From Picochlorum sp. 'celeri' (Eukaryota; Chlorophyta; Trebouxiophyceae): 64,000 bases of DNA. Where the stretch lies: assembly GCA_010909725.1 (NCBI GenBank), contig JAACMV010000014.1, forward strand, positions 372,001-436,000. Reading direction: 5' to 3'. Below the pieces are notes generated by a model that had not been told where the DNA came from, did not search any database, and saw nothing but the letters and a program-made list of their open reading frames with translations. Below are positions 3,394 through 15,252 of this stretch, piece after piece. The number at the start of each line of letters is the position of its first letter. Positions within the stretch are counted from its first letter, which is position 1. The translations under genes and the position numbers were made by a program.

Positions 3394-3469
3394 GTCGATA
3401 TAGTATCTATTATTTTCCTCTAATACCATTCCACCGCACGTACAAATCATAATAATACGTTTTTTACAC

Positions 3470-3874
3470 TCAGTTGTTATTCTTCAAGTAGTACAATACG
3501 ACTGCAATCAACACAATGAGCAAAGGAAGCAATGCCCTGAAAAGCCCTCCTCCCTGTTCCGCGTCTGCATGGCTCTGTTTCTGAGATGCCTTTGCTGCAC
3601 CAGTAGTTGCGTGCGCATCACCACCTTCAAACTCACCAATGTAATAATCGTTCAACATTTCCTGCGCTGTCGTACTATGCCCAATCTCCTCAAAGTCCTC
3701 AGTACCATCCTTTCCAGACGCAGCCACCACAATATCATATCCACCAGGGTGTTCATCCAAGAATCGAGTCACATCATAGACCTTGCCATGAATAATCAAC
3801 CAGCAATCCTTCTCTGAGCGATGCTTTGAACACTCTTCCAAAGAGTACACCTTCTTCTTCTCTGTCTCTGCCAT
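3470..3874 (-). CDS. CYB5: Cytochrome b5, tail-anchored
   Basis: Small haem electron carrier of 134 residues, probably on the ER membrane, supplying electrons to desaturases and other oxidases. The b5 domain spans about residues 8-85. The first axial ligand is in FLDEHPGGYDIV (the HPGG signature) and the second is the His of EEIGHSTTAQEML. A polar linker leads to a single C-terminal hydrophobic segment (LLPLLIVLIAVVLYYL) followed by a short lysine/asparagine tail, the usual tail-anchor layout. No intron. The ATG at 3874 directly precedes the domain, so the start is well supported. Confidence 0.95.
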   Translation of the reverse strand: MAETEKKKVYSLEECSKHRSEKDCWLIIHGKVYDVTRFLDEHPGGYDIVVAASGKDGTEDFEEIGHSTTAQEMLNDYYIGEFEGGDAHATTGAAKASQKQSHADAEQGGGLFRALLPLLIVLIAVVLYYLKNNN

Positions 3875-11160: not shown

Positions 11161-11793
11161 TCTGTCGGTAGTAACGTGTTGTAGGTTTGTTTGATCAGAT
11201 ATCTTGACTCCACAAAGGACTTGTGATCAATAGAGCAATGAAACGCAAATTTCACTTGAAGAACACTTGCAGTTTGTATGCAGGTCATTGAAATTCAGAT
11301 ATTGAATTATAATGTACGCATCGTGACGCAGATTCAGCCATTATCATCGTGATCTGATCCAGTTTGATGGCCTGCACATCGGCCTCCCTTTAGTTTTATG
11401 TTTGATGGGACACCTTGCTTTATCGTATTTTGACACGTGCTCATCCCCTATCAAATGAAATCTTGATGGGGTGCCCCCGATGGAAAAAGCGCAACTACTT
11501 CTCCTCCCATCAAGAGGTGGTGTTGAAGGATCAACTACATCATTGTTCTGTTAAAGACATAGGAGCACCAAAATTGCCAATATACGGCAGATCCATTGAA
11601 ATATCAGAGGTTACTTTTAAACTATTGCTGTAAAAAGTGATATTAAGATTGGGTTTGAGTCATGGATCATGATAGATCGTACCGATCGCTGAGGTGGTTG
11701 TGAAGCACTGCGTCAGTGTCACTCGCCACCGGCAACAATGTCGGATTTGAGAGCCATCACATAAATGAGGACTTTTATAATTATCAGGCGTGT
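11161..11793. other. Intergenic region between METE and the Fanzor gene
   Basis: This 633 nt gap is the divergent upstream region of METE (- strand) and the Fanzor gene (+ strand). A palindrome-rich patch, ATGGATCATGATAGATCG followed by TACCGATCG, lies at about 11661-11690. Short upstream ORFs start at 11738 and 11765, and the second overlaps the proposed Fanzor ATG. I found no terminal inverted repeat matching the 3' side of the Fanzor gene. Confidence 0.45.
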
Positions 11794-14766
11794 ATGATGG
11801 CAACAGCAGACGGAGAGGTGCAAGCTTACGTACAGGACACAAGTCCCAAGCTTGGCCTCTACAGAAAGCCTTCAGGGAAACAGACACAGTATGAGAATTT
11901 AGTGATCAAAGTCATTAAACCTGGATCACTAGGTGGATACCAAAATCATAGTCGGGAAACTAAGGGACAATGGCGAGGAGTTGCACGGTCCCCCCGACTA
12001 AAAAATCTACTTTTTGACACGGCAACAATGCTTGGTCACATCTCCTTTGAGGCCACCCAGGCTGCACATTACCATGTCTATAGATGCTTAGAAAATGGTA
12101 TCGATCTTGGACCGATGGATTTTAATGGCTTTTGGTATAAAATATTTGATGCAATAAAAGACCTTAGGTATGGTGGGGGTCTACACCATATTGACACGCA
12201 CCTCTACGATTCACTCAGGGAGTATGAAGAGAATGCCCCATTGAGAAGAGACGATCACCATATTGATGCTGATGAACCTTTTGGGATATGGGATTTACCA
12301 GGGCACAGGGTTTGGAGACATGCTTGCCTCAAAGCTGCTGCAAAAACAAAGGAACAGAATTTGGGCGTTATTCTTCAAACAAATGCATATCATAATTTGG
12401 GAAAGGTGATCAAGGTGCGTATTGCTGAATACTTTGGCGATACATATGCTGATAATTTTCGTTCGCTCGTATCAGCTATTGCCAAATGCATCTGGGACGA
12501 TCAGCCTTTGGAGAAGGTCAAGGAGGGGTACAAGCGGCTGAGTGATCTCACACAAGAGGAGATTAGAGACATCGCTTGTCATGTCATAGATCCTATTCGG
12601 GAGAAATTTCCAGATGAGACAGGTCGAAAGGATAATTCGAAAATGATACAATTTGTGTATTTTGTTATGGGTGAGGTGATTGAATACAATAGAGTACGAT
12701 CTCGTCAGCGGGGAGCACAGATTGTCAAATTTGTAAATGTGTGTGTTGGTCAGCAGCTGGCAAACGACATCGAGAGAGAAATGGGAGATTTGAGCAAGAA
12801 AAAGTTTGTCTTGTTCATGAAACATGCGTTGGACATATTTCGGCAGTGCTCAGGTTCAGATACGTCCAGTGTTTGCAGAGATATTGGCATCAGATGTTCT
12901 CAACGTGTATCAATGAATGGAAAATATCGCAGTTACATCCTGCGACGTTTATCAGAGAGAATTTTGTATCAGACGGAAAATTCAATGCTCAAGGATGAGC
13001 TTGTGCTAGACCAACATCAAACAATGTGGATTGACAGGATTACTGCTCAGCTGCAGCTTCCTTCCAGCTTGTCTGAATTTGAATCAAAGAAAGATCTCTT
13101 CGTAAAATATCTTAGAGAGTACATTGTACCAAAACTTCGGGAGTCGAATCTATGTGTGGCACAGAGGGATCACCAAAATGGAAATAATAAGATCCCATGG
13201 GGCAGAAAGATTGTGGTGCCCTCAATTCTCCCCTTGGCCAAAAAAAGAGCGTGTCATGTGAGCATCCCTAATGATGCAATCACATCATTGGCAAAGTTCT
13301 TGGCAGAAGAGGATAAGGATATCGAACAGAAGATCACAGCCATGCAGATCATACTCTCTGAGGCGAAAGAGAGAAAGATGGCAATTGAGAAAGAGATTGA
13401 TGAACGCATGTTGCAAGAACAAACCGATGAGGAATACGAAATGGTGTGTCAAATAGAGAGGAACAAGATTGCCAGCGAGAAACGATTCAGAGCCATTCCT
13501 ACAGGAAAAATACACAAGTACAAGATGAGGCCTGAGGAGACCGCCTTCAGCATGGACAGAAAGAAGAGGAAAGAAGAGTATTTGTCGAGCAGTGAAGAAT
13601 TCAAGCAAGCTGAAAAGGAATGGGAACGTGCCAAACTGCTATATCAAGAGTGTTGCTGGATGGCTCTGTTCAATATTAAAGTGAAACGACGCCATGATGC
13701 ACACGAGTGGCTTTTTGGTGGCGAGTTATCAACAGATGGTGTGGACGTGTCGATGCAGTACTACAGAATCAAAACAGATGAAGAATTTGAAGCAGGTCAA
13801 AAAGAGAAGAAAGAAAGCGGAAAGAAAGCCTTGCAAAGAAAGACCAAGAGAACAGGCAAAAAGCCTGCAGGCTCGGGCAGTGCTCTGACGGCAGACAAAT
13901 CGGATGATATCTCAAGTCAAGCAGATTGGCGTAGAGCAAAAGATGTTTTGAAAGATGACCTCAGTAATGTATGCGTTTTTGATCCAGGTCCATCAGGACA
14001 TGTGGGCATCAGGATGGATAGATCAAAATTTGACACCCTGAAGGAGAACAGAAAGCATGGTGACTACGACCCTTTTAAGACAATACACCTGAGCAACCAT
14101 GAGATGAGAGCCCGGTCAGGGAAATTAAAGAGGATGAAGCTGAAAGCAATATGGTCAGAAAGTAAACCCAAAATTCGGGCATGGAATGCTACAGCACCGA
14201 GTCGAAAGGTAGCAACAAAAGCAGAGATCTTGGACTTTTGCAGAAATACAAACAGCCAGTTGCACGATGTCTATGGTTTTTATTCTCAAAACTGTTTCCG
14301 GCGGCAAAGGTTTTCCGTATACTCCCGGACTCAGCACATGTTGGACATGATGGTTGAAAAGATCTGTGGCACATCAGAGAGGAAAGTGCAGGAGAAGACT
14401 GTAGTCGTATTTGGAAATGCAGCAATAAATTCAGGAGAGTGTCGAACAGGACGAATATGCTTGGGAGAGCTCAAACGTCTACTTCGACAACGCTGTTGCT
14501 ATATTGAAGTTGACGAATTCAGGAGCAGCCAATATTGCTGTGCGTGTCAAACAAAGTTGGAACCTCCCCCAAGAGTTGGGCTACACAAGCGCTGGAAAGT
14601 ACGCCGTTGTATGAACAATGAATGTGAGCGTGCTTTCTGGCAAAGGGATGTAAATGCAGCCATAAATCTCGCCAAGTTCTTCCTCTGGGAAGTTCATGGA
14701 GAAGACAAGGACAAAGTCTTCAGAAGGCCTTGCAGGCTTGACGAAGATGACGTGCCTGATGTGTGA
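11794..14766 (+). CDS. Fanzor: eukaryotic TnpB-like RNA-guided nuclease
   Basis: Intact single ORF, 990 residues from the first in-frame ATG (11794; ATG 11797 follows). The frame is open to 11704, so an upstream exon is possible. The C-terminus carries the split RuvC fold of TnpB/Fanzor. Motif I is Asp730 in VCVFDPGPSGHVGIRMD. The Fanzor-style Glu908 is in YIEVDEFRSSQYCCAC, just before the zinc finger. Motif III is Asp952 in WQRDVNAAINLAKFF. The zinc ribbon is Cys915, Cys918, Cys939 and Cys944 (CxxC and Cx4C), and the VVVFGNAAINSG strand fits the family. About 700 residues precede motif I, long for TnpB but usual for larger Fanzors. They include a basic coiled-coil region (about 525-610) and a Lys-rich linker before motif I. 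Family proteins cut DNA guided by an RNA from the element's 3' end. No transposase ORF is adjacent. Confidence 0.85.
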   Translation: MMATADGEVQAYVQDTSPKLGLYRKPSGKQTQYENLVIKVIKPGSLGGYQNHSRETKGQWRGVARSPRLKNLLFDTATMLGHISFEATQAAHYHVYRCLENGIDLGPMDFNGFWYKIFDAIKDLRYGGGLHHIDTHLYDSLREYEENAPLRRDDHHIDADEPFGIWDLPGHRVWRHACLKAAAKTKEQNLGVILQTNAYHNLGKVIKVRIAEYFGDTYADNFRSLVSAIAKCIWDDQPLEKVKEGYKRLSDLTQEEIRDIACHVIDPIREKFPDETGRKDNSKMIQFVYFVMGEVIEYNRVRSRQRGAQIVKFVNVCVGQQLANDIEREMGDLSKKKFVLFMKHALDIFRQCSGSDTSSVCRDIGIRCSQRVSMNGKYRSYILRRLSERILYQTENSMLKDELVLDQHQTMWIDRITAQLQLPSSLSEFESKKDLFVKYLREYIVPKLRESNLCVAQRDHQNGNNKIPWGRKIVVPSILPLAKKRACHVSIPNDAITSLAKFLAEEDKDIEQKITAMQIILSEAKERKMAIEKEIDERMLQEQTDEEYEMVCQIERNKIASEKRFRAIPTGKIHKYKMRPEETAFSMDRKKRKEEYLSSSEEFKQAEKEWERAKLLYQECCWMALFNIKVKRRHDAHEWLFGGELSTDGVDVSMQYYRIKTDEEFEAGQKEKKESGKKALQRKTKRTGKKPAGSGSALTADKSDDISSQADWRRAKDVLKDDLSNVCVFDPGPSGHVGIRMDRSKFDTLKENRKHGDYDPFKTIHLSNHEMRARSGKLKRMKLKAIWSESKPKIRAWNATAPSRKVATKAEILDFCRNTNSQLHDVYGFYSQNCFRRQRFSVYSRTQHMLDMMVEKICGTSERKVQEKTVVVFGNAAINSGECRTGRICLGELKRLLRQRCCYIEVDEFRSSQYCCACQTKLEPPPRVGLHKRWKVRRCMNNECERAFWQRDVNAAINLAKFFLWEVHGEDKDKVFRRPCRLDEDDVPDV

Positions 14767-14911
14767 TACAACCAAAGTCACATTGCTACATGCATATATA
14801 TACAGGGTATATATACAGGGTAGCCGCGGAGTATATAAATAGAGAGTAAATTTTTTGGTCTATTACACCTACTTATAATAATACATAAACCGCCATCAAC
14901 TCTCCTTCATT
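14767..14911. other. Fanzor 3' flank with a tandem TATATACAGGGTA repeat
   Basis: The 145 nt between the Fanzor stop and the RPS30 stop hold two adjacent copies of TATATACAGGGTA (about 14797-14822), then CCGCGG and an AT-rich run. In characterised Fanzors the guide RNA is transcribed from the 3' end of the ORF and its 3' flank, so this is where a guide scaffold would lie. That assignment is inference, and I cannot fold it reliably. Confidence 0.35.
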
Positions 14912-15252
14912 TTACTGACTGTTTGGTCCACGCTTCTTTCCGAAACCAGTGACAACATTCACAAAACGACGGTTGTACTTCATGCGCTTGCAAGCACGTC
15001 CAGTTGGCTTCTTGGCCTTCTCCTGTGGAGCCACCTTTGGGGTCTGTCCACGCACTTTACCAGCACGGGCGAGAGATCCGTGTACCTTTCCTGCGCAATA
15101 ATAACAAGAGAATTAAAATAAATACAAACTAGGTATGCGCGAATGCCCCTGTGAAACTGAACAAGCGCTGTCAAACGGCGGAGGCCGCCAACATGAGAGC
15201 TTCATTCGTTCCAGCCGGACGGCGTATCTGTAGTAATTAGATACGTACCCAT
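14912..15252 (-). CDS. RPS30: 40S ribosomal protein eS30
   Basis: Exons 15252-15249 and 15090-14912 give 60 residues. The first exon is only four coding bases (ATGG), and the 158 nt intron has GTACGT and CAG ends. The join gives [20 protein letters not shown], the near-invariant start of eS30, and the protein ends with a conserved basic segment ([20 protein letters not shown]). No ubiquitin-like fusion precedes it, unlike the animal FAU gene. I looked in the intron for C/D-box snoRNA signals and saw none. Confidence 0.95.

Follow-up and report, generated by a model that had tools for sequence, protein, structure and literature searches.

The natural role of Fanzors, the eukaryotic RNA-guided nucleases, has been stated as unknown (PMC10432273). 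Extracts of PMC3627910 record Fanzor1 in Chlamydomonas, Volvox, and Chlorella, and its association with a Mariner-type transposase is already known (PMC3627910). In the alga Guillardia theta, the gene for GtFz1 (PDB 9CER) has no inverted repeats and its guide RNA overlaps the last 17 codons (PMC10432273); the protein carries Asn in place of the third catalytic Asp (extracts of PMC11423790; also seen in our alignment). In the Spu-1/SpuFz1 families of Spizellomyces punctatus, the right end overlaps or adjoins the open reading frame (ORF) and ORF-less ghost copies occur (PMC10432273). Clear inverted repeats of 30 nt border the SpuFz1 copies, and the SpuFz1 guide RNA spans the right end and continues 14-15 nt into the flank (PMC10432273). 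The green-algal Fanzor1 elements CRe-1, CRe-2, and CRe-3 of Chlamydomonas include many 5'-truncated copies that keep their 3' end (PMC3627910), and they possess introns and Helitron ends. In the trebouxiophyte Auxenochlorella, for which a phased diploid assembly exists, no repeat is more abundant than a Fanzor element according to extracts of PMC12633428; those extracts, within the open-access literature consulted, contain no report on Fanzors of Picochlorum. For TnpB, a model has been described in which a cut is made in the allele without the element, after which the element copies itself there by recombination (PMC10432273).

Picochlorum is a small marine green alga, and in the genome of Picochlorum sp. 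'celeri' an intact Fanzor1 gene lies on one chromosome copy and a gutted remnant on the other. The gene represents no novel type of system and adds a further member to the known Fanzor1 group. The C-terminal half of GtFz1, comprising RuvC and zinc finger, aligns with the encoded protein, including the TDG and DPG motifs and the glutamate at the Fanzor position, and inverted repeats, absent from the GtFz1 gene, are not recognizable here either; the Picochlorum protein (990 aa) is longer, however, and keeps its third Asp (Asp952). With the Spizellomyces families it shares a profile match (to SpuFz1), the position of the right end relative to the ORF, and the occurrence of ORF-less copies, whereas it is not bordered by inverted repeats like those of SpuFz1. 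The truncated copies retaining a 3' end recall the CRe elements; unlike in these, the ORF needs no intron and a Helitron end was not identified (the search did not extend to Helitron proteins). The likeness to Auxenochlorella is one of description.

The window analyzed here is a stretch of 64,000 nucleotides (contig C14, positions 372001-436000), and the genome searched consisted of 30 contigs with 27,412,692 bases. The phased diploid assembly of Picochlorum celeri is given in extracts of PMC7225527 as 27.43 Mb in 15 scaffolds for each of two sets with 46% G+C; across the window, G+C varies from 43 to 54% in 2-kb steps. The features discussed below are collected in Table 1. As proposed in the original prediction, the coding region of 990 residues is a single open frame uninterrupted by a stop, and this frame stays open upstream to a GTG at 11716, which would extend the product to 1016 aa. 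The same prediction had described the neighbors METE and RPS30 as intact, of which the METE N-terminal exon and the RPS30 exon were checked and are present. It had also seen neither a transposase ORF nor an inverted repeat, and none is recognizable at this locus. The copy sits 387 kb inside a 1.16-Mb contig and is thus chromosome-interior.

Table 1. Features of the Fanzor1 locus (window coordinates) and of a transposase-linked relative elsewhere in the genome
Feature	Position	Strand	Basis
Fanzor1 ORF, ATG to TGA, 990 codons, intron not required	11794..14766	+	homologues and profile matches to GtFz1 and SpuFz1
Codon of Asp730, predicted catalytic (DPG, RuvC-I)	13981..13983	+	invariant in five-protein alignment; aligns with GtFz1 DPG
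Codon of Glu908, Fanzor-position glutamate, six residues ahead of first finger cysteine	14515..14517	+	alignment, motif, PMC11423790 (extracts)
Zinc-finger region C915xxC918...C939x4C944	14536..14625	+	alignment and motif
Codon of Asp952, predicted catalytic (RD motif)	14647..14649	+	alignment and motif
Candidate guide-RNA scaffold over the 3' end of the ORF	14616..14797	+	raised identity to C19 copy, identical codons
Conserved 22-bp right end of family 1, AGTCACATWGCTAYATGCATAT, non-coding	14776..14797	+	genome site count and alignment
Expected guide beside the right end (putative)	14798..14817	+	analogy with SpuFz1
Stretch replaced on homologous chromosome C18 by unrelated or strongly diverged 1.43 kb	11267..14691	.	
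METE N-terminal exon, neighbor of Fanzor1 ORF		minus	PF08267, E 2.4e-54
RPS30 exon	stop at 14912-14914	minus	name given from exon sequence
Ribosomal protein L4	15465-16541		PF00573
6.0-kb DDE_1-transposase-plus-Fanzor1 element (L021, L052, L053)	C20, about 40512-34488	reverse	open frames, inverted repeats

By its sequence, the ORF is a Fanzor1 gene with the full set of catalytic and zinc-finger residues. The three acidic residues claimed for the RuvC site (Asp730, Glu908, and Asp952) indeed show the Fanzor arrangement, and the proposed CxxC...Cx4C finger is complete; all seven residues are invariant across five Fanzor proteins of this genome, namely the window protein and four others that are 58, 23, 19, and 20% identical to it. 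The Fanzor1 motif of Bao and Jurka, D-X(125,275)-[TS][TS]XX-C4 zinc finger-X(5,50)-RD (PMC3627910), is found in the protein as Asp730, Ser911-Ser912, the four cysteines, and Arg951-Asp952. In Fanzors, the catalytic glutamate follows the fifth strand and precedes the zinc domain (extracts of PMC11423790), and this displaced glutamate (Glu908) as well as a conserved Gly874 upstream of it are invariant in the five families and aligned with GtFz1. PMC10711439 employs the search pattern DPG-x(120-160)-E-x6-CxxC-x(12,18)-CxxC-x(4,8)-D, which was built for prokaryotic TnpBs; the window protein has the DPG, E-x6-CxxC, and Asp elements of this pattern, but 175 residues between DPG and E, 20 between the cysteine pairs, and a second pair of the form Cx4C.

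Because the PF07282 zinc-ribbon match stays below its cut-off (E 1.7e-5; 25.3 bits against 26.3 bits), the NCBIfam search returned 0 families, and a PDB search with the single window sequence gave matches at chance level alone, the Fanzor1 call rests on the motif, the profile search, and the homologues. The PF07282 cut-off is passed by two of the four sister Fanzor families in the genome. When a profile of 11 relatives (including the Picochlorum sp. BPE23 protein, which has no C-terminal half) was compared with the PDB, GtFz1 (E 1.4e-11) and SpuFz1 (E 7.3e-6) were recovered and no further sequence at E <= 0.1; a five-sequence profile found GtFz1 at 2e-8 and a prokaryotic 'Transposase' (9j09) at E 0.12. 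Among PDB sequences at E <= 0.1, the profile matches are to Fanzor1 only, and the predicted Fanzor identity is borne out by motif and profile at the level of Fanzor1.

Outside this genome, the only close protein among 5.8 billion is the hypothetical protein M9434_000408 of Picochlorum sp. BPE23 (P0001), which is 96% identical over 74-76% of the query. Its model of 759 aa ends in an unrelated tail without the C-terminal RuvC part, which may be a gene-model artifact or a true truncation. A query with residues 715-990 retrieved five proteins, the BPE23 protein and four unnamed metagenome proteins of 948-1011 aa, the latter being 42-47% identical across these residues. In a C-terminal tree of 11 rows, the window protein and its paralogues group together (94/97) and are joined by the four metagenome proteins (91/97), both forks being short of the tool's star; the remaining three Fanzor families of the Picochlorum genome fall outside this group, and the branch leading to GtFz1 is very long. 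The cluster therefore defines a subfamily of 'long Fanzor1' proteins, about 950-1020 aa in length. As regards viruses, an IMG/VR scan with one peptide pattern taken from the alignment matched 11 stretches, none of which encodes a relative.

Alignment of the window protein with that of BPE23 covers 738 residues and shows 28 differences. Two of these differences fall in 192 conserved columns and 26 in the 546 others (Fisher one-sided p 0.011), a column being counted as conserved when the C19 paralogue and at least two of the four metagenome homologues agree. With a classification drawn from the four metagenome homologues, without C19, the counts are 3/279 versus 18/363 (p 0.004), seven differences with fewer than three aligned outgroup residues being dropped. 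Since the differences avoid conserved columns, amino-acid purifying selection has likely acted on at least one of the two branches since the window and BPE23 copies split.

Within its own genome, the window protein belongs to a dispersed family (family 1), in the search for which 46 of 52 candidates were scored. Full-length or near-full-length paralogues, about 56-58% identical, lie on C19, C11, C10, and C16. The C19, C11, and C10 copies are open across 975-1034 codons, a longer C10 frame containing a stop, and the C16 match is broken near codon 931 into two pieces; the intact copies among these are found at distances of 35-117 kb from a contig end. Over a shared stretch of 3.7 kb, the C19 and C10 copies agree at 96.4% (dN 0.018 and dS 0.055 over 917 codons); this stretch stops sharply, and the sequences flanking it are unrelated. 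The family-1 ends that the two copies share contain a weak inverted repeat, equaled by 14 of 2000 shuffles. At <= 2 mismatches, 13 sites in the genome carry the right end AGTCACATWGCTAYATGCATAT, against 0 for the reversed control: in the window, on the other allele (C18), on C10, C16, C11, C19, C27, C2, C22, C8, and C17, and further at the far ends of C14 and C18. On C8 (L049) it is preceded by a decayed C-terminal remnant alone, and on C2 (L050) no Fanzor sequence was detectable before it. Other decayed copies have no right end (C3, C23, and C4, where it is cut short), as do short family-1 fragments on C15, C27, C18, and C14. Two 3' fragments with different flanks, L008 (C4) and L033 (C27), begin at a common internal base after AAACAGG and extend to the right end or nearly so. 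Between the homologues C11 and C19 (L003 and L002), the flank of the family-1 copies is common on one side only, and the break coincides with the element border.

Most of the Fanzor sites counted lie near contig ends. Within 125 kb of an end are 14 of the 17 family-1 sites on contigs of known length and 16 of 18 sites of a second family; alleles are counted apart and the limit was picked after the positions were seen, so that binomial values exaggerate the effect. From 21 family-1 sites listed, four on C18 were dropped, and from 20 family-2 sites, those on C29 and C30. The elements of family 2 are about 2.57 kb long (e.g., L009:17-2587) and encode a Fanzor only; none of 2000 shuffles equaled their 26-bp inverted repeat. 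The family-2 copies are about 99.4% identical, have 20 identical right ends, and lie mostly near contig ends, and the family was probably active until recently. The ends carry TA, preceded by A in all rows with a readable left end, 12 of the 15 inspected (two rows are incomplete and one is unmatched by the pattern; alleles counted apart). A clean empty site was sought on C15, which does not have the C27:10469-13033 copy, and rejected, as the right flank matches (98.4%) and the left flank does not. At L011 and L048 on the homologues C27 and C15, the flank is likewise common on only one side of the Fanzor element, with the break at its border. Extra cargo in the C15 copy (L043), considered as the element's transposase, turned out to be another repeat; it has a 206-codon frame and 69 genome matches and is inserted within the left inverted repeat of the family-2 Fanzor. 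An element of about 530 bp without an ORF (L044, C2:1322100-1322900, with a similar one on C22) has an inverted repeat of the same kind and TA at both ends, resembling the Spizellomyces ghost elements.

The Tc1/mariner transposase domain PF13358 has 0 matches in the Picochlorum genome and PF03184 (DDE_1, which we take to be pogo-like) has eight. The element on C20 combines an open 896-codon frame with DDE_1 (E 3.5e-14) and an open 811-codon Fanzor1 frame between related inverted repeats, and its ends align with those of family 2 (left, 0 of 1000 shuffles as good; right, 1 of 1000). Judged from these frames and ends, it is apparently a complete transposase-plus-Fanzor1 element; the corresponding copy on C5 looks decayed. 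In the open-access literature searched, we found no paper in which Fanzor and pogo occur together.

The partner allele of the window copy was compared on the homologous chromosome C18, whose alignment with the window breaks off after 11266 and resumes at 14692, with 107 mismatches in 5576 bases of flank. Between these flanks, C18 has 1.43 kb versus 3.43 kb on C14, and it retains the terminal 75 bp of the Fanzor coding sequence, together with the right end, at about 97% identity. The sole genome match of the C18 filler is to window positions 11447-11715, upstream of the ORF, at 70%; smaller pieces align at 11324-11359 and 11743-11824. A 70% match inside 98% flanks rules out simple drift of the same allele; the filler may have arisen by gene conversion, by introgression, or when a break was repaired from a template. 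Part of the filler (C18:386594-388017) can be read as a fragment coding for an EF-hand (PF13202, E 0.001, which misses the cut-off).

In search of the left end, matches to that of family 1 upstream of the window copy and on C18 were no better than shuffles (708 and 717 of 2000, respectively), and BLAST revealed no similarity to the paralogues upstream of the window ORF. The copy, having neither a recognizable left end nor a linked transposase, therefore probably no longer moves. Among the options named in the original prediction, the solo copy is the best reading, with the right end kept and the left end not found: the window copy would be a solo, chromosome-interior descendant of the long-Fanzor1 mobile family. 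The paralogues, the gutted C18 allele, and the right end go beyond what that prediction had noticed.

By analogy with SpuFz1 and GtFz1, the guide RNA was sought over the 3' end of the ORF. At element positions 3400-3600, the DNA is 0.82-0.85 identical to the C19 copy, versus 0.57-0.77 elsewhere in the ORF, and in codons 930-990 the codons are identical at 31 of 44 conserved residues (permutation p 0.002, the best of five nested stretches, the other four giving 0.27, 0.11, 0.03, and 0.21). The fold of the candidate is no better than shuffles for the window (z -0.91, 38 of 200 as good) or for C19 (z -1.34, 18 of 200), and 0 of 49 pairs changed on both sides; the guide RNA thus stays a candidate. 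The expected guide has genome matches at <= 2 mismatches on C14 and C18 only, and therefore no present target is visible. The protein would bind a guide RNA encoded by its own gene, transcribed across the 3' end and the right end, and the adjoining flank would presumably act as the guide. As predicted by homology, the protein would cut guide-matched DNA beside a short adjacent motif. Cuts of this kind may favor copying of the element into an allele that has none, and the window copy, even though it does not have what is required for jumping, could in principle convert an empty allele in this way.

Taking these observations together, we assign a probability of about 0.75 to the reading that this is an intact Fanzor1, the solo remnant of a long-Fanzor1 mobile element, predicted to act as an RNA-guided nuclease with a guide from its own 3' end and probably immobile. 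It is somewhat unlikely that the gene is intact by chance and already unused, i.e., a recently silenced relic still without a stop. The gutted partner allele and the decayed relatives elsewhere (L049, L006, and L037) fit such a relic, while the constraint seen against BPE23 speaks against it, even if that constraint may have acted on the BPE23 branch or before silencing took place. The same sparing of conserved columns would suit a host-domesticated Fanzor, kept for a cellular task of the alga rather than through self-propagation of an element, as would the interior site between housekeeping genes and the absence of the left end. However, the right end is still conserved, and the gutting of one allele shows that two copies, at any rate, are not required; we regard domestication as unlikely.

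Continued mobility with cryptic ends and a transposase acting in trans is the least credible of the alternatives. Sharp common ends in the family-1 copies on C19 and C10 are in its favor, and the near-identical family-2 copies and right ends imply that Fanzor elements do move in this genome; the window copy, however, is only 58% identical to its nearest paralogues and has no recognizable left end, and the genome searches yielded no closely similar second copy. Slightly less remote, yet very unlikely, is that the two alleles form a pair of drive and resistance: the C14 Fanzor would cut and convert element-less alleles, and C18 would escape by keeping the right end, which parts the guide-matching flank from the adjacent motif. 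The right-end remnants on C8 and C17 and the ORF-less right ends on C2 and C22 would then be further escapees. Against this stand several decayed copies without a right end (C3/C23, C4 in part, and the short fragments), and C18 may equally well be an ordinary deletion or an introgressed haplotype. The solo remnant of a mobile long Fanzor1 remains the reading we prefer.

Picochlorum grows fast, is diploid, and has a phased genome, and its editing with Cas9 is reported in paper titles. With an intact Fanzor1 allele facing a gutted one, and with a transposase-plus-Fanzor1 element that is apparently complete in the same genome, it offers a practical place to test the role of a Fanzor in its own host.
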